Of a stretch of DNA of 64,000 nucleotides, positions 52,046 through 64,000 are shown piece by piece. The notes beneath the pieces were generated by a model. The model had not been told where the DNA came from and ran no database searches. It was given only the letters and a program-made list of their open reading frames with translations. The stretch is from Lichina pygmaea. Lineage: Eukaryota; Ascomycota; Lichinomycetes; Lichinales; Lichinaceae. The position numbers and the translations under genes are program-made. How positions within the stretch are numbered: position 1 is the first letter of the stretch; each line of letters opens with the position of its first letter. The DNA lies in NCBI GenBank assembly GCA_963422465.1, contig OY730171.1, positions 5,166,202 to 5,230,201 of the forward strand, given 5' to 3'.

Positions 52046-52294
52046 CTACCGCCCCTCCGCTCTCTCGACCAAGGGCGAGCCCAGTTCGACGGGCTGCCAG
52101 ACGTCTCGCCGCACCTTGTTCTGTGCCCAGACCACGTCACCCTTCAAGTACACCAGCACGCCCCCTTTGCCGTTCGCGCTCGCGGTGATTCTCAGTATCG
52201 GTATACCGGTTTGCACGTGCGCCTCTCTCAGCGGCACCATCAGGAGATTCTCTTGCTCGCACCACACTTCGACGACGTCCCTGAAGCTGGCCTC

Positions 52295-52325
<31 letters not shown>

Positions 52326-54313
52326 TGAGATGGACAGACCGGGATGGATTCTTCGACGCTCCTTCCGCCGACGGCCACAGATGTCCCAGGTTCGTCGTGG
52401 GCCCGCGTTGCGGGCAGAGGAAGGTCCGTCGCGGCCCTGTCGCCAAGGTCGATGGCACGGTTCATCATGGCTAGCCCCCGCTCCCAAGAGTTCACAACGA
52501 TTGCCAGACGGTTGATCTCCTCGGGGATCTGACTCTTCCACCACGTGAACCACCGCCCGACCTCTTCATAGTTGGGTTCCGATGTTAGCCATTGATGAAG
52601 TATTTCAAGCCACTTGGGGAAGAACTCCATCGCGAGAAGTTGACCCATGACTTTGACGGGGAAGAGATCGCTCCAGTCGAGAACGCGCAGTAGAGGCTCG
52701 AGATCCTGGTCGGCCGGGTTGATGTCCAGCTCACGACGTAGCTTCTCCGCCAGTCGAGGCAGCATGTGACGGATCAAGAGCTTGTCAAAGTCTCGGCCGA
52801 GCACTTCCTTCCACGGCCGCAGGTCGTCGATCAGGCCGCCTCTCAGGTTGTAGGTGCTAAGCGCGCCCTTGAACTTCCTTCTCACGTCGGCAAGCAGACC
52901 GGACGAGCGACCGAGGTCCGTGTGCCGCGCGTCGAGATAGGGAAGCCACGGGAAGAGCCAGACGTGGGGAGAGCGCAGTTCCTTCTGTTCCTGCCGGTGA
53001 GAGGGCCTTGGGTTCCACGCCGCAAGCGCCTCGCCGAGCCGCCCAACGATCAGCCGATCGAGCATGTTGGCGAAGACGAACGGGGGAAGGACGTCCTTCC
53101 AGGCGTCCACCAGGGCGGTAAGCTGCGTCGGATGTTCCACCTTCCAGTCGTTCACGATGGCGGATCGGACCTTTGGTAGCCAAGTGCGGTATATCATCGT
53201 CTCGTACGGCGTGGTGGCCTTGCTGGGGCGCCGCCGCCCAAGAGCAGAGCCGTCATCGTAGGCGGCCACGATGGCGTCATCTGCTTTCGTCCCCGAGACG
53301 AGGACGTCGTGGAGACGATGGAGGTACGGAGCAACGTGGCGGACATCGTTCAACACATCCCATCGTTCCATGGCCGAGCGTAGGCGCGCATGCACCGCTG
53401 CGACAGCCGCCTCGCTCAGGTGATAGGTGCCGCTTTCTTCCTTGAACTCGAGCGCCAACGTCTCGAGCGCGGTGGTGACGGTCTCCCACTCGTCGTCGTG
53501 CGACGGCGGCTGGCCTTCGGCTGGCGCGTCGGAGATCGACCGCTCCAAGCCCCGCACGCCATCGACGAGGCCTTGCAGCCTGCGATCCGTCTCCCGTCCT
53601 TCGGCGACCTCCTCGCCGAGGAGCCGTTGTTGCTCGTTGAGGTAGTCTAGTTCGTCGCCGAGGATCCTCCATTCCTCAGCGTAGGCCTCGAGGTCCCGCT
53701 GGGCCCTGTCCGCTATCCTGGCAATCTCGGCGTCGGCGGACAGGCCTCCGCTCGGTGGGGCGGGGGAGGGCAAGAAAGTCGTCGACTTTCCCGTGATGTC
53801 GATCAGAGACTTGAGGACGGACGGAACGACCATGCCTGCGCTGTCTTCCTCTATCTCCGTCGCCGTTCGGAACCTGGTCTTCGGCCTCTTCGGCACCGTG
53901 CTCGCGACGGCGTCAGACCGATCGGCCTTGGTTCTTGGCTTCCGCGACCGGGCTTCTTCCTCGGACGAGTCCTCGACAGACTCGCCTCGAAGCCGAGCCA
54001 CGCGTCGCTCCTCGTCCTTGGCCTGCCGGGTCTTCTCACGAACGATGCCCAGCCCAGCCCCTTGAGGTCGTAGCTTCACGTCGATCGGAGCCGTGATACC
54101 CTGACCGGACGCTCCAAGACCTTGACCCGGTCTGTGTCCCATCTTGGCCATCATCCTCGCGGCAAAGGAATTCGGCGCCTGGGACGACTGGGGTTCGACG
54201 GCGGAGGAAGGGATGGAGGCACCGTCCATCTGCTCGTCCCCGTCGTCTCTCGACCTCTTGGCCGGCACGGAAGCAGGCGGTCGATGGCCGCCATACCGAG
54301 TTCCACCAGCCAT
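52046..54313 (-). CDS. SPP382: G-patch splicing factor Ntr1/Spp382 (TFIP11 family)
   Basis: Partner of the DEAH helicase Prp43 in disassembly of spliceosomes. Single exon from ATG 54313, 755 aa. The G-patch lies near the N-terminus: SFAARMMAKMGHRPGQGLGA, SGQGITAPIDVKLRPQGAGL (about 54000-54160). The GCFC-like middle domain contains ILGDELDYLNEQQRLLGEEV and PHVWLFPWLPYLDARHTDLG, WSDLFPVKVMGQLLAMEFFP. The C-terminus has the family ending: FRDVVEVWCEQENLLMVPLR, GKGGVLVYLKGDVVWAQNKV. A poly-Pro run (about 52298-52325) interrupts the tail. The frame stays open 54 codons upstream of the chosen ATG, but that part (MSKPHTTRRQGCAGSLCRKI) is not family-like. Confidence 0.93.
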
Positions 54314-55528
54314 GGCTCTGGTGTGACGAAGCTCGGGACGACGAGTCGTTCGAAACGGTGGAGCCTCCGCTGTCCTTGAGGAAGAGCCAAGTGACTGTAC
54401 AATCCAGAGAACGGTTATCTTACGGCACAACGAGCCAGCACAGCCTTGACGGCGTGTGGTATGAGGCTTACTCACTTACTAGAGTACGGAGGTTTCGCTG
54501 GAGACAAAGCCCAAGGGGAAGTAACGACTGTACTGGTATCTAAGTAGTGGCATCGAGATACTTCATGTCAAGCCGCAGATCGAGATTAGCCTGACCATTT
54601 GTTCCTACACCATCGAGTTGCTAGACGTCTCAAGACTTGTATTAATGCGGCTTAAAATATGGCTAGACAAAGTCTTGCAGTAGCATCATATAAGTCGTAT
54701 CAAGTACTTTCGTATGTACGGAGTACTCCGTAAGCCTTAATGCCTGCACGAAGGACACCCCCCTTGACTGGACGCACACCTCCGCTAGCGTTGCTGTACG
54801 CACACCCTCTGGATATGTACGATCAGTTGCTATTTCCTGTCACTGTCGCTATACAGAGCCCCTATATTCATGAGAAAGCTTTGTATCTACGGAAGTACGT
54901 ACTCATATGTACATATTACCCAGAGAATTCAGATACTGAGCACTACCTACATGAGGCAAGTCTCTACGTACCTCAGATGTCTCCAATGAAATCTCCAGCC
55001 ACTGCGACATCTCCAGCAATCATCTCTGTTGGAACCTCCGATACCCCTCTGAGATCTCAAGCAATCTCTCCGACAGAATCCCTGATGGAATCCCAAGCCC
55101 CCTCCCCGCCATCTCCAGTGCTATCTCTGGCACAATCTCTGATGGGTTTCTTGGCCTCTGTGATGCCTCTGGCCCTAATGTCTGGACCTGCTGCTGGCCT
55201 CCCACTGGACCATGCCCATGTCCATGACCCTGACCCTGACCCTGACCCTGTCTCAGCCCTGTCCCGCTCCCCTTCCCCGCTTAACAGTCTCAAGATATGA
55301 CGGATTTCAGCATATAGATTGGTCACTTCAATAAGTGCTTTCATGTCTGGATAGACCCCGGGGGGTGGTGATTCAAGCATGGTGAGTAGTCTAGCGACAG
55401 CGACAGGAACTGTAACCGACCGTACATATCCAGGGGGTGTGCGTACAGCAACGCTAGGGGTGTGCGTCCAGTAAAGGGGGGTGGGCGACTCTTTGTGGAA
55501 ATATGTTAGTGTGACACCTTTAGTAAGT
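54314..55528. other. Start of repeat island
   Basis: Contains the NTR1 promoter, a copy of the palindrome TACGGAGTACTCCGTA at 54717-54732 and a minisatellite ORF on the minus strand. Base composition falls and C/T-rich tracts appear. No host gene is supported. Confidence 0.5.
55057..55380 (-). CDS. Uncertain ORF with minisatellite, 107 aa
   Basis: From ATG 55380 the first part (MLESPPPGVYPDMKALIEVT, NLYAEIRHILRLLSGEGERD) looks protein-like with a helical segment. It then passes through a CCCTGA hexamer array (about 55224-55252, read as Gly-Ser repeats) and a degenerate repeat of GAGATTGTGCC-type units. Low-complexity sequence is open on both strands here. It may be a fragment of a larger repeated ORF. 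No function is proposed. Confidence 0.25.
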   Translation of the reverse strand: MLESPPPGVYPDMKALIEVTNLYAEIRHILRLLSGEGERDRAETGSGSGSGSWTWAWSSGRPAAGPDIRARGITEAKKPIRDCARDSTGDGGEGAWDSIRDSVGEIA

Positions 55529-57349: not shown

Positions 57350-57508
57350 TGTTGCGGTCTGTACCGTACCGTCCTAACTGAGTATAGGATTAAGGGCAAG
57401 ATGCGGAAGGCGGGTTGGTTCTCGCAGGAGAGGAGTGTCAAGGAGTGCGAAGGGGTTTGGTGGAATGTGGTGGTGGTGACACCTGATCAATAGCTTTGTA
57501 CAAAAGGA
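57350..57508 (-). repeat. Fragment of an older LTR, split by the chromovirus
   Basis: Begins TGTTGCGGTCTGTACCG and matches the first ~160 bp of the LTR at 57509, more diverged than the two LTRs are from each other. It stops at ACAAAAGGA, where the younger element starts, so the younger element inserted into an LTR of its own family. The rest of the older LTR should lie beyond the window. Confidence 0.85.
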
Positions 57509-58102
57509 TGTTGCAGTCCGTACCGTACTGTCCTATCCGAGTATAGGATTAGGGCGAGAGGTGGAAGGCGGGTTGGTTCTCGCAGGAGAGGAGTGTCAAG
57601 GAGTGCGAAGGGGTTTGGTGGAACATGGTGGTGGTGACACCTGATCAACGGCTTCGTACAAAAGGATTGTATTGAAGTAGATCTAGTTGTCTGGATCACA
57701 ACATGAGTTGAAGACGATCGTTCCATAGGGGAACTATCGCCGGACTATATAGTGCCCAGTTCGTGAGCAGAGTGAGCTCTGCTCACTTTGCTCACTTTTC
57801 ATGCACGCTGCAGTGAGCTGGGTGAGCTCTGCTCACTTTGCTCACTTTTCATGCACGCTGCGGTGAGCTGGGTGAGCTCTGCTCACTTTGCTCACTTTTC
57901 ATGCACGCTGCGGCAAGCTGGGTGAGCTCTGCTCATTTTGCTCACTTGTTCGTGCATATGCATGCTGCGGCAAGCACCCCCTGGTTTGTCTTGCCAGTCA
58001 CGTGACTGGTTCCCGTGTCACGCTGTCTGGTACTTCCGTCCAGTATCCTGTCTGCTGCTTTCTGTGAGTATATAAGGACTGTGTTCCTCCTGGGTTGTAA
58101 CA
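57509..58102 (-). repeat. 3' LTR of the chromovirus (594 bp)
   Basis: Bounded by TGTTGCAG at the plus-strand left end and GTTGTAACA at the right end, so the minus-strand LTR reads TGTTAC...GCAACA. Just outside, 58103-58120 is pyrimidine-rich on plus (GGAGAGGAGGAT on minus), the expected polypurine tract. It contains a 50-bp tandem repeat, a palindromic ACTATATAGT box (57744-57753), and a plus-strand TATATAAGG box (58069-58077). Confidence 0.88.
57767..57975. repeat. LTR minisatellite, about four ~50-bp units
   Basis: Units contain GTGAGCTCTGCTCACTTTGC, then TCACTTTTCATGCACGCTGC. Each unit carries GAGC/GCTC inverted pieces that could fold. The same array is in the right LTR (about 63700-63905). 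Confidence 0.88.
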
Positions 58103-58136
58103 CTATCCTCCTCTCCATCTTTCATCATCTTGATGA

Positions 58137-58550
58137 AATCTGGTCATACCTCCAAAGTCATGTGCGACTGTTAGCCGAACTCAGCTGGCTGCTCAAATCC
58201 GTGATCGGGGTTTTGTTTTGCGTACACCCTGCGACTTTTGTGTTCTCTGTGGTTATCCGTGCTTCCAGATGCTGGGAGAAGACAATAAGTTGAAATGTGC
58301 TGCGTACACTCGGCGCGGAAGGTCTTGTGTCTCTGTGTCCTGGGAATCTTTGAACATGTCCTGGGACAACCTCCGTGAGGATGTTGCCGCTGACAAGGCA
58401 ACACGCGATGCACTCTTTGAACAACTTGCCACAGTGCAGGCTTGTCTGTCTCGGAAGCGAAAGGTGTTGGAGGGCGCTGAGGTCTGTGCGAGGCAGAAGC
58501 TTCAGTGCTTGGTGAAAGAGATGGAGTCAGATGGCGAGGATTTGACTTGA
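58137..58550 (+). pseudogene. Antisense Cys-rich zinc-finger-like ORF inside the chromovirus
   Basis: An open frame on the strand opposite gag-pol, between the polypurine tract and the chromodomain. Reading: QIRDRGFVLRTPCDFCVLCG, YPCFQMLGEDNKLKCAAYTR, RGRSCVSVSWESL, then a coiled-coil-like tail (LATVQACLSRKRKVL, LQCLVKEMESDGEDL). The CDFCVLCGYPC and KCA...GRSC spacing looks like a small zinc-binding module, similar to short Cys-rich proteins I recall as abundant in some ascomycete genomes. First ATG is at 58269. A plus-strand TATATAAGG box in the LTR lies about 60-70 bp upstream of the frame. Treated as a fossil part of the element; whether it was ever expressed is unknown. Confidence 0.6.
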
Positions 58551-58624
58551 TCAGTCATTGACACATCCCTCCTGCAGGCCGAGCTGTTCGGTCCTACTCC
58601 TGCCGAAACTGTCACAGAAGAAGC

Positions 58625-59950
58625 TGGCAGTTCGCGAGGTTCTTGAGTGGTTCCCAGGTATTTTCTGAGTCTGGGTATCCTTTCCACTTGACAAGGTATT
58701 GCTAACCTTTTCTAGCCAGGATCTGTTCAATCTCAAACTCTTGTTCTTCTTCAGGTTGGTAATGGAATGTTTCCTGCAAGGGTGTGCTCTGGTCGGCTGG
58801 TTTAATCATTGATATATAAAAGTTTGGATAGACTCTGGCATCCCTTGGTAGTCGTATCTTGATGTTGATTGGTCCTGTTTTTTCTTCGACTGAAAATGGT
58901 CTGACCTTGATGTTGTCAAGTTTCTTTGTCTTTGGTTTCTTTGTTTTCCAATTTCTTGTAAGAAGGTAGACTTTATCCCCCTTCTTTAGCTGAGGTGCCA
59001 TTTTCGATTTCTTGTCCATTTGACGTTGCATTCTTTCTGAGGTCTCTTGAAGGTAGTGCCTCATTATTGTGTGTGTTTGTTGTAGGAGCTTGTCATGTTG
59101 GAGTGCTTTCTCTATGTTTGGTGAAGCTCTGCTTGGCATCCCGATGTTCACATGTCGTCCAAAATTGGCAAAAAATAGCAATTCCTTTGTTGAGTCTGAT
59201 CTGTGCTGGTTGATTGCCAGCTGTGCCACTGGTAATAACTGTACCCAATTGCTGTGGATCTGGTTGATGTAATACTGTAAGTAAGTCTCCAGGACTTGGT
59301 TTGCTCACTCTGTCTGGCTGTCAGTTCGTGGGTGATAGGCTGTAGACATTTTGGGTTTTGTTCCCATGGCTGCACTGATTGTCTTCCAGTAGTTGGATGT
59401 GAAGAGTTTGTCTCTGTCTGTAATAATCGTGATCAGAACTCTGTGGTCTCTGACTAATCTGTCCAGTAAAAGGTGTCCCAACTGTTCTGCTGTGTGGGTC
59501 TCCTTGAATAGTACTGCTATTAGATATTTTGTGAATCTGTCCACTATCACCATAATCAAGTTGTAGGTGATTCCTGTGACTGGGTCTTTGGACTTGGGTA
59601 GCTTTGTGATGAAGTCTATTGACACGTCTTCCCACAGGCCTCTCAGTATTGTGTTTGGGTGTCCTTCTCCGTATGGCTTGTGTTTTCCATGTTTGTTTTT
59701 CTGGCATAGTAGACACTTGCTGATGTAGTTTATGACATGTTGTCAGAGGTTAATGACATTGTTCCCTGCCTGTTGGATAAGGTCTGTAGTCTTGGAGATT
59801 CCTGGGTGACCATGTGCTGGATTATCGTGGTAGTTCCTTATTAGTTCTTCAGTGTCTTCTGCCGTGAGCTTGTTGATCTGTGGTTGAGGCACCAGGTTTC
59901 CTTGCTGGTCCTGCTGTAAGATCATTCCTTGGTGTTCATCATCTTCCATG
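58625..59950 (-). pseudogene. Integrase and chromodomain region (fossil)
   Basis: Minus-strand blocks in order: an HHCC-type zinc region (GHPGISKTTDLIQQ and a CLLCQKNKHG patch), integrase core (SIDFITKLPKSKDP, VDRFTKYLIAVLF, HPRTDSQTE), C-terminal domain (KKGDKVYLLTRNWKTKKP, RDARVYPNFYISMIKP) and a chromodomain (YLVKWKGYPDSENTWEPLKN, about 58635-58735). Chromodomains of this class target integration to marked chromatin in related elements. Confidence 0.9.
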
Positions 59951-59961
59951 TGGTCTTTTCG

Positions 59962-61880
59962 TCAGCTTAGTACATCTGCTCTCCCATTGTCTTGTCCAGA
60001 GGTGTACAAGATCTTGAACTTGTGTTGCCCTAGGAGTTCAGCCCATCTGACTTGCTGTCTGTTCAGCTTCTTGGTTGTCGTGAACGTTGTCAGATTCTTG
60101 TGGTCTGTGAGAACAGTGAGTTCAGAACTGCTTTCCGCGTACACTCTCCAGTGTTTAAGTGTGTTGATGACTGCCAGTAGCTCTTTATCATGGATATCAT
60201 AGTTTTGTTCCGCTTGTGTTATTTTTTGTGAGTAGTAGGCAACTGGGTGCCACTTGCCGTCTGCCTGTTGGCATAGACATGCTCCCACTGCCTGATCTGA
60301 AGTGTCTGTCTCGATTCATGTTGGTTGGCCTGTCTTGAAGTTGAGGAGAACTGGTTCCTTGGCGCAAGTGTCCTTGAGCTGTTGGAATGCTTTTTGTTAT
60401 CTCTCCGTCCACCAGTACTCCACATCCTTCTTTGTGAGTTCTGTTAGTGGTGTTGCCATCTGTGAGTAGTTCTTAATGAACTGTCAGTTGAAGTTGGCAA
60501 ATCCTAGGAAGGCTTGTACTTCCTTAACTGACATCAGTGTTGGCTATTGCTAAATCACTTTGATTTTCTCAGGGTCAATCTTGATCCCTTCAATCCCTAT
60601 AACATATCCAAGAAATTCAACTTCCAGTTTGTTGAACTCACATTTCTTTGGGTTGAGCTTGAGCCCTGCCTGTTGTAGGTATCGTAGAACATCCTTCACA
60701 TGTTTGGTATGTTCCTGTTGCGTGTTCGAGTAGACAAGAATGTTGTCCAGGTAGGTGATAGCTGTTTGGTCCAGGTGTGCTCTGATGATGTTGTTGATCA
60801 ATGCTTGACATGTTGCTGGTGTGTTTGTGAGTCCGAATGGCATAACCAGATACTTGTAGTGTCTGTATCAGGTTCTGAAGGCTGTCTTCCATTCTTCTCC
60901 TTCTTTCATGCATATCAGGTTGTATGCTTCTTTCAAGTCCAGCTTGGTAAAGATTGTAGCTTGGCTGATCCTGTCTTGCAATTTGTTCGCATTTGGCAAC
61001 AGATATCAGTTCTTGATGGTAATGTTGTTGAGTTTCCTGTAATCCACACAAAGTTGAAGACTTCTGTCTTTCTTTGGTGCAAATAGTATTGGGTATCCTG
61101 CTGGTGATTGAGATTCTTGAATGAAACTCTTTTTCAGGTTTTCCTCCAGGTACTCGCGAAGTACTTGGAGCTCTTTCTCTGATAACTGGTAAATTGGTCC
61201 AAATCCTGGCTCCATCCCTGGTTGCAACTTGATCTCATGATCCCAAGGTTGGTGCTTAGGCAACACTGCTGTTGTTGTCTCTTCCTGAAAGAGGTTATCA
61301 TACCCAGGTCAGTACTCTTCAGGGATCTCCAGAGGGTTAACAACTTCCTCTCTCTTCATCTCTGACTGTTTGGCCACCTGGTTCTGGGGTGTGCCTGTTG
61401 AGGTGGACCTCTTCTCTTGAGAGTTGTCCTTTCTGTCAGTGAGGTTCCACTGAGGACTCCTTCCCTTATCTGTCCACACCTTCTGCAGCTGGTAACAGGT
61501 CTGAGCTGTGTTGTTAGTGCAGTTCCTAAATGTGAGTACTTCTGTCTTCCAGTTAACAACTGGGTTATACTTCTTTAGCCAAGGCATCCCCAAATAGATA
61601 TCCTGAGTGGCCAACTCGACAATATCAAGGTGGATCCTTTCAGCATGGTGTCCAGTAACTATTTCCATTGGCTGTGTCTCATGGCAGACTAGCTCTGTCT
61701 GTCCATTTGCCATCGTGAGCTGATAGGGCTGCTACTTGTGTCTCCTTCCAGTGCTGAGGGTATTGTAAAGTTGTCTCAAGATGTAGTTTCTACTGGCTCC
61801 AGAGTCAACAAGTGTGTATGTCCGTACTGGTGTGTTGGTGTGTAGTGACACAGGCAATCGCAGGTGCTTTGTGTTGCTAG
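59962..61880 (-). pseudogene. Protease, reverse transcriptase and RNase H region (fossil)
   Basis: Protease: LVDSGASRNYIL near 61775-61815. Reverse transcriptase: [53 protein letters not shown] and the YLDN active-site region with its usual surroundings (TYLDNILVYS), about 60550-61270. RNase H: PVAYYSQKITQAEQNYDIHD, KELLAVINTLKHWRVY and VLTDHKNLTTF, about 59965-60290. Family assignment is Ty3/gypsy. Confidence 0.9.
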
Positions 61881-61925
61881 GGGTCATGTTGTTGAGCTCC
61901 TGATGTCGCCCCTTGACAAGAGAGT

Positions 61926-62492
61926 TCAGTCTTTTCCTGATCGAAGTGTCTTACCACTGACTGGGCAATGGGTCCAGCTATTCCCATCAGTTCTGAGGAA
62001 TCTGTTCATGAATTTGTCTTGCTGATGCTTGTCACATCCAGGCTTGAGGCAGTACTGCCAATTGTCAACGTAGCAGTTGTAGTTGTTGCCTTGCTGTAGG
62101 AACATGAGGTGTTCATGCCAATCATGTGTGTGCCCAGGGAATGTGGTGTGTTGGTGTTTGTCCCAAAGATAGATCTCACACGCATCCTTCTTGCAATTGA
62201 CCCAATGCTTGTGGCAGGTGGTGTGGTAGGGTGAATGTCCTCCGTACCTTTGTAGTTGTTCGTGGTAGGTGCAGTAGTGCTTTGTGCAAAACCTCCACTG
62301 TAGTTCGCTGTGCTGTAGATTTCGTGAGTCCATACTGTAAGCATAGCTTCCTTGTGGTATTTCTTCTTTGATAGACATGGGTTCATCTCGGTCTCCATCA
62401 GAGGTGGCTAAGGGCTCCTGTCCCTTGTCCTGACCTGTCTGTTCTGGTAGGTCCTTGCCTTCTGATGTTGCCAGTTGGTGGACTGCTTCCAA
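61926..62492 (-). pseudogene. His/Cys-rich domain between Gag and protease (fossil)
   Basis: A 188-codon frame. After an acidic start it has repeated metal-ligand patterns: FCTKHYCTYH, CKKDACEIYLWDKH and YCLKPGCDKH all show C-x4-C, two with x2-H, separated by His-rich stretches (HTTCHKHWVNC, HQHTTFPGHTHDWHEH). This is extra to the usual CCHC knuckle. Such a block is not part of the standard Gag-Pol layout I know. Confidence 0.7.
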
Positions 62493-62592
62493 TGTCTGAT
62501 CGTAGTTGTCCTATTGTTCAAGGGATAGCTGAGCCTCTCCTGGTGGGTCCTCTGGCTTGATGACATTCCAGTCTCTGTCAAGCGTATTAAGT

Positions 62593-63425
62593 TGCTATCA
62601 GTGCACCTTGTTCTTTGAACAACAGTCTTTCACCATGTGGCCTAGCTTGCCACAGGTATAGCACTTCAGTGCTTTCCTTTTTTTATTGTTCCTTCCCTTC
62701 GTGAACCTTCCCTTGTGGTGGACTGCATCCAGTTCCATGGGTGCATAGCCATATGGGTCATGTGGTGGTGCCTTGTTAGGCAGCTTGTAGTGGTTGCTCA
62801 CATGCTATGCGGGGTGGCTGTATCCTCCGTCGTGGTGTTTCTCTATCACTTGCTCAAATAGCTTGTCATCAATGTTGATTGCTTGTGCGATGAGTTTGTC
62901 CAGTGTGTTGACTGCTCATCCGTCAAAGATGATTTCATCCTTCATGTTTTCCTTGAGTCCACGTCAGTACATGACCATCAGGGCGTTGTCATCCCAGTCA
63001 GTCAGTACTGAGTATTGTTTGAACTGCGTGGTGTACTCTGCGGCTGAGCGTTGTTGTTTGATGTGCTGGATCATTTGTATAGCCACTTTGTCTTTGTTAG
63101 ATAGTCCAAGGATCCTTTTGATCTTGTCCTTGAATCATGTCTATTTTGTCATCCATTCTGTTGTGCTGTTGTGGTCTCTGTTTCCTGAGAGATGTTTGTT
63201 AACATAGGGCTTGATCCATCAATAAGCATTACCTCTTATGTAAGTGGTTGCGAAGAGGGACCACTTCTCCTTAGGCAGCTTTGTCTCTGGTTGGAATTGA
63301 AAGTAGACTTGGAGTTGCATGAGCCAGTCGTTGACCTTGTTCTTTTCGCCGTAGAACAGGTCTGGCTTGGTGACACTAATCTTTCCATCTGGGAAGTTGG
63401 GGTTGGTTGCTCCTGAGGTACTCAT
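62593..63425 (-). pseudogene. Gag region with CCHC zinc knuckle (fossil)
   Basis: Starts MSTSGATNPNFPDGKISVTK only 18 bp from the 5' LTR. Capsid-like segment DLFYGEKNKVNDWLMQLQVY near 63300-63370. The nucleocapsid knuckle is CYTCGKLGHMVKDC (C-x2-C-x4-H-x4-C) near 62620-62665, within a basic stretch. Confidence 0.88.
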
Positions 63426-63443: not shown

Positions 63444-64000
63444 TGTTGCAGTCTGTACTGTACTGTCCTATCCGAGTATAGGATTAGGGTGAGAGGTGGA
63501 AGGCAGGTTGGTTCTCACAGGAGAGGAGTGTCAAGGAGTGCGAAGGGATTTGGTGGAATGTGGTGGTGGTGACACCTGATCAACAGCTTCGTACAAAAGG
63601 ATTGTATTGAAGTACATCTAGTTGTCTGGATCACAACATGAGTTGAAGACAATTGTTCCATAGGGGAACTATTGCCAGACTATATAGTGCCCAGTTCATG
63701 AGCAGAGTGAGCTCTGCTCACTTTGCTCACTTTTCATGCATGCTGCAGTGAGCTGGGTGAGCTCTGCTCACTTTGCTCACTTTTCATGCACGCTGCAGTG
63801 AGCTGGGTGAGCTCTGCTCACTTTGCTCACTTTTCATACATGCTGCGGCAAGCTGGGTGAGCTCTGCTCACTTTGCTCACTTGTTTGTGTATATGCATAC
63901 TGCGGTGAGCACCCCCTGGTTTGTCTCGCCGGTCACGTGACCGGTTCCCGTGTCACGCTGTCTGGTACTTCTGTCCAGTATCCTGTCTGCTGCTTTCTGT
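63444..64000 (-). repeat. 5' LTR of the chromovirus, cut by window edge
   Basis: Begins TGTTGCAG on the plus strand and matches the left LTR through the end of the window. By comparison it should end about 37 bp beyond. Confidence 0.9.

Follow-up and report, generated by a model that had tools for sequence, protein, structure and literature searches.

The window analysed here, namely the whole stretch of 64,000 nucleotides from Lichina pygmaea, whose genome comprises 32.5 Mb in eight contigs, holds a chromovirus-type Ty3/gypsy element on its minus strand. The 3′ LTR of this element (57509-58102, minus strand, 594 bp) has its U3 towards high coordinates, and the 5′ LTR, also of 594 bp and on the minus strand, occupies 63444-64000 within the window and continues to 64037, past the window end. 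In keeping with a chromovirus, the LTR has TG..CA ends and is bordered by AAGGA, a short target-site duplication that lies on both outer sides, at 57504-57508 and, as its partner, just beyond the 5′ LTR and outside the window. The two LTRs (57509-58102 versus 63444-64037) are 94.9% identical, with 30 mismatches, 20 of which are in a CpG context. The element sits inside an older LTR of its own family (57350-57508 and 64038-64178, the latter past the window end), and a further stretch of this LTR family is found nearby, at window coordinates 66854-67186, again past the window end (L039). Outside the element, 52046-54475 on the minus strand is a long open frame of 809 aa that seems to contain a G-patch; it is probably a splicing-factor gene of the host, which we take to encode a G-patch protein.

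Internally, gag-pol (58600-63425, minus strand) carries stops and frameshifts in the window copy, and its pieces include CCHC, RT, RNase H, integrase and SH3-like ones. Pfam matches in the broken pieces were obtained for RVT_1 (2.8e-22), RT_RNaseH (4.1e-34) and zf-CCHC (3.7e-07), as well as for SH3_Tf2-1; the rve match, from a single broken piece, has an E-value of 2.4e-07 and, at 31.4 bits, is slightly below its cut-off of 32.6. RT, RNase H, integrase and a CCHC Gag are thus all present, as in chromoviruses. The chromodomain at the end of pol (58600-58737, minus strand) was placed by transfer from other copies, the window copy being frameshifted; in those copies PF00385 scores above its cut-off, 53 bp from the antisense ORF described below, and a WEP motif and the pol stop were located at this end of pol.

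The antisense ORF itself (58146-58550, plus strand) comprises 134 codons plus a stop. The initial annotation had described, between the 3′ LTR and the chromodomain and opposite gag-pol, an open plus-strand frame with the cysteine patterns CDFCVLCGYPC and KCA..GRSC. All of this is present in the sequence (58137-58550), and its position and strand are borne out in many copies, with two corrections to what was read from the window alone. First, the frame is open from 58137, but coding begins at 58146, a position occupied by ATG in 70 of the 90 aligned copies; the remaining 20, the window copy among them, have ATA. Second, the cysteine-rich motif is there, but the window copy is damaged and has Tyr at the fifth cysteine, all six cysteines being found in 74 of the 90 copies.

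Copies and relatives of the antisense frame

A DNA search of the genome with the region gave at least 74 matches (40 of 746 candidates scored), and a protein search gave at least 150 copies (best 150 of 503 candidates), in rows that span residues 1-137 of the query over 411 nt. The 90 aligned copies, which belong to what we call the first subfamily, correspond to the 70 highest-ranking and the 20 lowest-ranking of these best 150, with the window copy included and the middle 60 left out. Among them the antisense frame has a mean of 0.92 stops and is free of stops in 32 of 90 copies, a share that is not an unbiased rate because of the way in which the copies were taken from the top and the end of the list. 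Moreover, 76 of the 83 stops fall at two CGA codons, which decay by CpG mutation. The other five frames have mean stop counts of 4.6, 6.6, 2.0, 4.8 and 2.4, with no stop-free copy in 90. The ORF is gap-free in 90/90 copies, the sole insertion, in L098, being at 58687 and outside the ORF.

The end of pol could be located in 81 readings, of which 22 stop at 58555-58557, 41 at 58588 and 18 at 58594-58624. The first of these stops is 4 bp from the antisense stop, and none of the 81 pol readings enters the ORF. In the first subfamily, pol and the antisense gene are tail to tail and do not overlap, so any constraint seen in the ORF does not stem from pol.

To find relatives we also searched with the chromodomain, with at least 150 matches (best 150 of 966 candidates). 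Ten chromodomain loci without an adjoining listed ORF were picked by profile coordinates, and the stretch behind the chromodomain was examined. All ten of these loci, sampled outside the first list, have an antisense ORF there. Eight of them belong to a second subfamily, with ungapped proteins of 134 codons and 60-69% identity to the query protein; the other two, with E-values of 0.002 and 0.007 and of differing length, belong to a third. Searches with two third-subfamily proteins gave at least 150 places each (best 150 of 499 and of 301 candidates). Among the matches listed in the latter search (best 150 of 301), 61 places at 86-100% identity belong to the third subfamily, and 89 places at 57-71%, mostly with a frame of 211 codons, constitute a fourth. 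By eye, and on contig C6 only, no place is common to the three lists. Twenty further loci were then read, ten from the second subfamily and ten from the fourth.

A related ORF at the same place and on the same strand of other elements, proposed in the initial annotation as a check of the frame, is therefore found in three further subfamilies. In single readings of L108, L109 and L043, the antisense ORF runs into pol at its end, with an overlap of about 143 nt in the third subfamily and about 81 nt in the fourth; because of this overlap, both strands appear to be coding at the pol end in these two subfamilies. A search for related loci found no homologues in IMG/VR and prokaryote genomes. The position between pol and the 3′ LTR, the antisense orientation and the presence in many copies are those of an antisense accessory gene of the brtn / aORF-3R kind, and we conclude that the frame on the plus strand represents a genuine antisense gene carried by the element.

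Selection on the encoded protein

Within the first subfamily, copies are decaying and their variation is dominated by CpG transitions. In the 90 copies (58040-58800), these amount to 0.21 per site per copy, versus 0.01-0.03 for other transitions and 0.033 for CpA. Since CpG transitions dominate the decay, its pattern is suggestive of methylation at CpG sites and not of RIP of the CpA type. We looked for purifying selection inside the subfamily of the window copy and found none: over the 90 copies there is no depression of non-synonymous change, both classes of change being about as frequent as expected. An excess of synonymous change is not expected here because the copies decay after insertion.

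Between subfamilies the picture is different. The initial annotation had asked for an excess of synonymous over non-synonymous change among copies; there is no such excess inside the window's subfamily, but an excess of third-position change is present in both comparisons between subfamilies. First, when 90 first-subfamily copies were compared with 18 second-subfamily copies in the plus frame, 60 near-fixed differences were obtained, 44 of them strictly fixed, which are distributed as 15/10/35 on the three codon positions (chi-square p=1.6e-4); 28 are non-synonymous and 32 synonymous, with 0 stops. Second, two third-subfamily copies compared with 11 of the fourth, over the first 130 alignment codons, chosen to avoid the pol overlap, gave 77 fixed differences, distributed as 25/14/38 (p=0.0036). 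Crude omega values, estimated without correction for multiple hits, are 0.25 and 0.39, respectively. The contrast between fixed and polymorphic (198 to 132) differences of the first two subfamilies has an odds ratio of 0.58, which at p=0.065 is by itself not significant; the corresponding ratios in the five other frames range from 0.86 to 2.0. Judged from these codon patterns, the protein is, or was, under selection, because differences between subfamilies concentrate at third codon positions.

These data bear on three explanations in which the protein has no function. A chance open frame opposite the 3′ region of the element would agree with the undepressed non-synonymous change within the window's subfamily. 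We give this explanation practically no weight, and rejected it on the stop counts, with the other five frames closed; on the absence of gaps from all 90 copies; on the second-subfamily frame, maintained over 134 codons at 60-69% identity; and on the third-position excess in both comparisons. The antisense transcript itself could be the active product, through double-stranded RNA, silencing or transcription interference, with the ORF riding along; excerpts of two papers record non-coding antisense LTR transcripts in retroviruses and retrotransposons (PMC10186651; PMC7264820). However, the third-position excess, together with the frame and cysteines retained between subfamilies, points to selection on a protein and makes a role confined to RNA improbable. 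A fragment of a host gene, captured by one element and amplified as a passenger without a role, is quite improbable as well: the Zn(II)2Cys6 type discussed below is a host, i.e. fungal, class with 27 Zn_clus matches in this genome, but the ORF occurs in several diverged subfamilies, at one place and under codon-level constraint. A captured host-like protein, the alternative offered in the initial annotation, is possible as the origin of the ORF.

A six-cysteine cluster and its likely class

The protein has two parts, namely a six-cysteine region resembling a zinc cluster (58230-58328, plus strand), of which five cysteines remain in the window copy, and a coiled-coil-like tail (58353-58526, plus strand) with a conserved basic patch, KRKV, which by inspection may be a nuclear signal. 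In stop-free copies with all cysteines, proteins of the first and second subfamilies have the spacing C-X2-C-X6-C-X11-C-X2-C-X6-C, and those of the third and fourth have C-X2-C-X6-C-X8-C-X2-C-X6-C. The Zn(II)2Cys6 class of fungal regulators follows the rule CX2CX6CX5-16CX2CX6-8C. This spacing was found in 74/90 copies of the first subfamily, 17/18 of the second and 11/13 of the third and fourth together, the window copy itself, with five of six cysteines, falling outside it. As a control, 15 of 16 host Zn_clus domains conform, and so do none of 20000 shuffles for each of three proteins. A Gag zinc knuckle was set aside as the source of the motif because Gag has CCHC and the antisense motif six cysteines.

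The residues between the cysteines separate the subfamilies. A stricter, PROSITE-like Zn2Cys6 pattern has basic residues between the second and third cysteines. It is matched by 11/13 third- and fourth-subfamily copies and by 14/16 host Zn_clus domains, and by none of the 90 first-subfamily and 18 second-subfamily copies. Pfam results go in the same direction. No third- or fourth-subfamily protein reaches the Zn_clus cut-off of 21 bits, the best being L133 with 20.0 bits (E 0.00076); Zn_clus appears at E<=10 in six of ten of these proteins, with E-values of 0.16 or worse apart from L133. Unrelated Pfam families rank higher than Zn_clus in L124 and L125, and L128 has no Zn_clus match. Among nine first- and second-subfamily proteins, two of them scanned as 104-residue pieces, none has a Zn_clus match, and two have zf-PHD-like matches of 17-18 bits, below the cut-off of 27 (L091, E 0.0025; L120, E 0.0037). 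By this measure, the third- and fourth-subfamily proteins resemble the Zn(II)2Cys6 class more closely than do the first two, under the Pfam cut-off.

More distant comparisons were made in two ways. First, a PDB sequence search with the first subfamily returned nothing credible, and searches with L124 and with an alignment returned insignificant rows only: in the former, PUT3 and LEU3 make up 4 of 11 rows (E 0.5-1.9), the best row being BAP29 (0.24), and in the latter LEU3, CYP1 and HAP1 make up 4 of 8 (E 1-2.7). The PUT3 match, itself insignificant, spans the cluster into the coil. Second, when two alignments were compared as profiles with host Zn_clus domains (13 of the 16), the probabilities were 61 and 35. 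With either alignment, none of 60 full column shuffles reaches the observed score, and shuffles in which the cysteines were held reach it in 1/60 and 2/60 runs; because the latter do so, most of the profile signal is cysteine spacing. The two protein groups, i.e. the first and second subfamilies versus the third and fourth, align weakly with each other (hhalign probability 6.8, P 0.005).

Behind the cluster, the KRKV patch is conserved in the first two subfamilies. The tail, which had been read as a coiled coil, looks like one, but a heptad test is not significant (130, 211, 85 and 225 of 2000 shuffles; 130 for a related copy). Third- and fourth-subfamily proteins end in an acidic, hydrophobic stretch. 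With GAL4, PUT3, LEU3 and HAP1 the antisense proteins share the six-cysteine spacing, a coil-like stretch after the cluster and, in the third and fourth subfamilies, the basic residues. They differ in being encoded by a retrotransposon and in scoring below the Pfam cut-off, and Zn(II)2Cys6 regulators are far longer than the protein of the antisense ORF. Public databases contain fungal 'hypothetical proteins' of similar build, and the family may be widespread though unstudied.

The main rival to a DNA-binding regulator is a zinc protein of another kind. In this reading, the antisense gene would be real and its product would bind zinc but not LTR DNA, either as a PHD-like or other protein-binding module or as a factor for the element's RNA, in assembly or export. 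This explanation draws on zf-PHD-like being the best, if sub-threshold, Pfam match of L091 and L120, and on the first two subfamilies not having the classical basic residues of Zn2Cys6 between their cysteines. Against it, the six-cysteine spacing is as in Zn2Cys6; the third and fourth subfamilies, whose ORF has the same place in related elements, lean to Zn_clus; and the alignment has no His among its invariant residues, which a C4HC3 PHD would need. We therefore regard a zinc module of another kind as unlikely, albeit deserving of serious attention.

Putative promoters, dyad arrays and a possible self-regulator

The LTR has TATA boxes on both strands. The antisense box, TATATAAGG (58069-58077, plus strand), is 77 nt upstream of the ORF start and, the 3′ LTR being 57509-58102, occupies positions 26-34 from the LTR end, so that the initial annotation was right in placing it within the last 35 bp. 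TATA[AT]A is at this fixed place in 89/90 first-subfamily copies, as TATATAAAG in 81/90, and all eight second-subfamily loci have TATAAATA or TATAAATG at -80, in an LTR that is otherwise much changed. The sense box of gag-pol, ACTATATAGT (57744-57753, minus strand), is about 320 nt from the antisense box and points in the opposite direction; it is found in 28 of 30 first-subfamily copies with long flanks (TATATAG) and in 7 of 8 second-subfamily loci. Within 270 nt of the third- and fourth-subfamily ORFs (L108, L109 and L043), TATA[AT]A is absent, so the antisense promoter of these two subfamilies, if any, would be of another kind. On these grounds we infer that the LTR may drive the ORF, at least in the first two subfamilies.

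Another feature of this region is a 16-bp palindrome, CCAGTCACGTGACTGG (57994-58009), with CCGG ends in the 5′ LTR; its core CAGTCACGTGAC, of E-box type, also lies upstream of the antisense ORF in aligned second-subfamily loci (L104, L110). Because the 5′ LTR (63444-64037) duplicates the 3′ LTR, it has an identical type of plus-strand end, directed away from the element and towards the flanking DNA; solo LTRs would likewise point this end at neighbouring genes.

Between the two TATA boxes, U3 contains a tandem array of 50-bp dyad units (57763-57956), a candidate operator. The dyad of the first subfamily is GTGAGC-N3-GTGAGC against GCTCAC-N3-GCTCAC, and paired half-sites of both kinds are present in 30/30 first-subfamily copies with long flanks. 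The corresponding dyads are GCGTCAAGAC against GTCTTGATGC in the second subfamily, GTGGACGAGCTGGACGA against TCGTCCACCTCGTCCAC in the third and GGACAAGC against GCTTGTCC in the fourth. All four subfamilies have such arrays in U3, which were measured in five loci, all from ORF-carrying LTR families. The units are of 50 bp (first subfamily), 42 bp (two second-subfamily loci), 47 bp (one third-subfamily locus) and 35 bp (one fourth-subfamily locus). The dyad score is reached by 3 of 1000 dinucleotide shuffles for the first subfamily, by 48 and 34 for two second-subfamily units, and by 0 and 8 for the remaining two.

Comparison of the arrays shows how the arms change. From the first to the second subfamily, CATGCA..CTGCG beside the dyad is kept and both arms differ, while the symmetry stays. 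From the third to the fourth, the outer arms GTGGAC / GTCCAC are kept and the centre differs; one base is changed in mirror fashion in both arms, at a CpG site, so decay could mimic this mirror change. Arms that change in this way would be expected where a dimeric protein binds or where RNA forms hairpins, and the dyads could also act as RNA hairpins or as sites of a host factor. CGG-type half-sites were also considered for the arms and rejected, as the arms of the units are not CGG repeats.

Our preferred explanation, to which we assign a probability of roughly 0.55, is that the antisense ORF is an accessory chromovirus gene whose product, a zinc-cluster dimer, acts on the U3 array of its own subfamily as a self-encoded feedback switch. 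The promoter of the gene would probably be an antisense one, at the outer U3 end of the 3′ LTR, and its protein would adopt a Zn(II)2Cys6-type fold and dimerise through a coil. This putative regulator would enter the nucleus and bind the dyad repeats as a dimer, setting gag-pol transcription when bound to the 5′ LTR and its own transcription when bound to the 3′ LTR. The result would be a feedback switch with a binding array that differs between subfamilies, and the acidic, hydrophobic end of third- and fourth-subfamily proteins would be in keeping with an activator. The earlier suggestion of an element-borne regulator, with a zinc-binding motif and facing an LTR TATA box, thus fits the anatomy and the relatives, and as an interpretation it is supported in part.

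It is tempting to speculate further that regulator and dyad array form a co-evolving, subfamily-specific lock and key, by which an element would control its own copies and not those of its sisters. In the first two subfamilies, this pair would be set between the two divergent TATA boxes. We advance this part tentatively, and hold it to be rather doubtful.

Antisense genes in fungal chromodomain elements are precedented by brtn of the Boty-like retrotransposons of Botrytis cinerea, attributed to Zhao et al. 2011 Virology in excerpts of later papers (PMC7264820, PMC4227169, PMC8365987). Like the element described here, Boty is an LTR element of a fungus, its pol includes a chromodomain, and it has an additional gene in antisense (PMC4227169, PMC8365987); unlike here, these excerpts make no claim of Zn2Cys6 or an operator array for BRTN, a comparison by description and not by sequence. 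A Monilinia transcript, similar to a truncated pol, is given as 63% identical to BRTN in the relevant excerpt of PMC5987419. An extra ORF is also drawn for some fungal chromodomain elements in a 2010 paper (PMC2864245), whose available part gives neither its strand nor its content, and when the paper of Muszewska et al. 2011 about LTR elements of fungi (PMC3248453) was searched by word, neither antisense nor zinc was found. Among the titles and opening lines of abstracts surveyed in the open-access literature, none reports an LTR element with an antisense gene of Zn2Cys6 type, or matching operator arrays.

Outside fungi, excerpts of two papers describe plant antisense aORFs, namely gene23 of Grande, RIRE2, and Retand with its TRP28 domain (PMC7264820, PMC11963269). 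These resemble the present gene in their position between pol and the 3′ LTR, in being kept in most copies and in a suspected nuclear or DNA-binding role. About half of Retand elements, moreover, are described as having tandem repeats between pol and the 3′ LTR; however, Retand belongs to a non-chromovirus lineage, has another domain and a long POL-3′LTR region, and its repeats are there rather than in the LTR.

HBZ, the antisense product of HTLV-1, is a bZIP regulator. It is another class of protein, and no shared ancestry is implied. As described in the available part of PMC10186651, HBZ is driven by the 3′ LTR, and an antisense gene under a 3′ LTR promoter, putative in our case, would be what the two systems have in common. 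From the arrangement of gene, boxes and array, we infer that the antisense protein may regulate the LTR of the very element that encodes it, in a layout resembling that of HBZ.

The role of antisense ORFs of LTR retrotransposons is called unknown in excerpts of two papers (PMC7264820, PMC11963269). In the present case, a single small element, with hundreds of copies in several diverged subfamilies, combines a likely class of protein with a candidate site for its binding, and because the two co-occur the role of such an ORF becomes testable. If the lock-and-key relationship is true, it would be a retroelement counterpart of the iteron/Rep control of plasmids and a protein-level parallel to HBZ. 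If the self-regulator proposed above is true, fungal retrotransposons would encode proteins dedicated to regulating their own LTRs, for which solo LTRs beside host genes would be ready-made targets.
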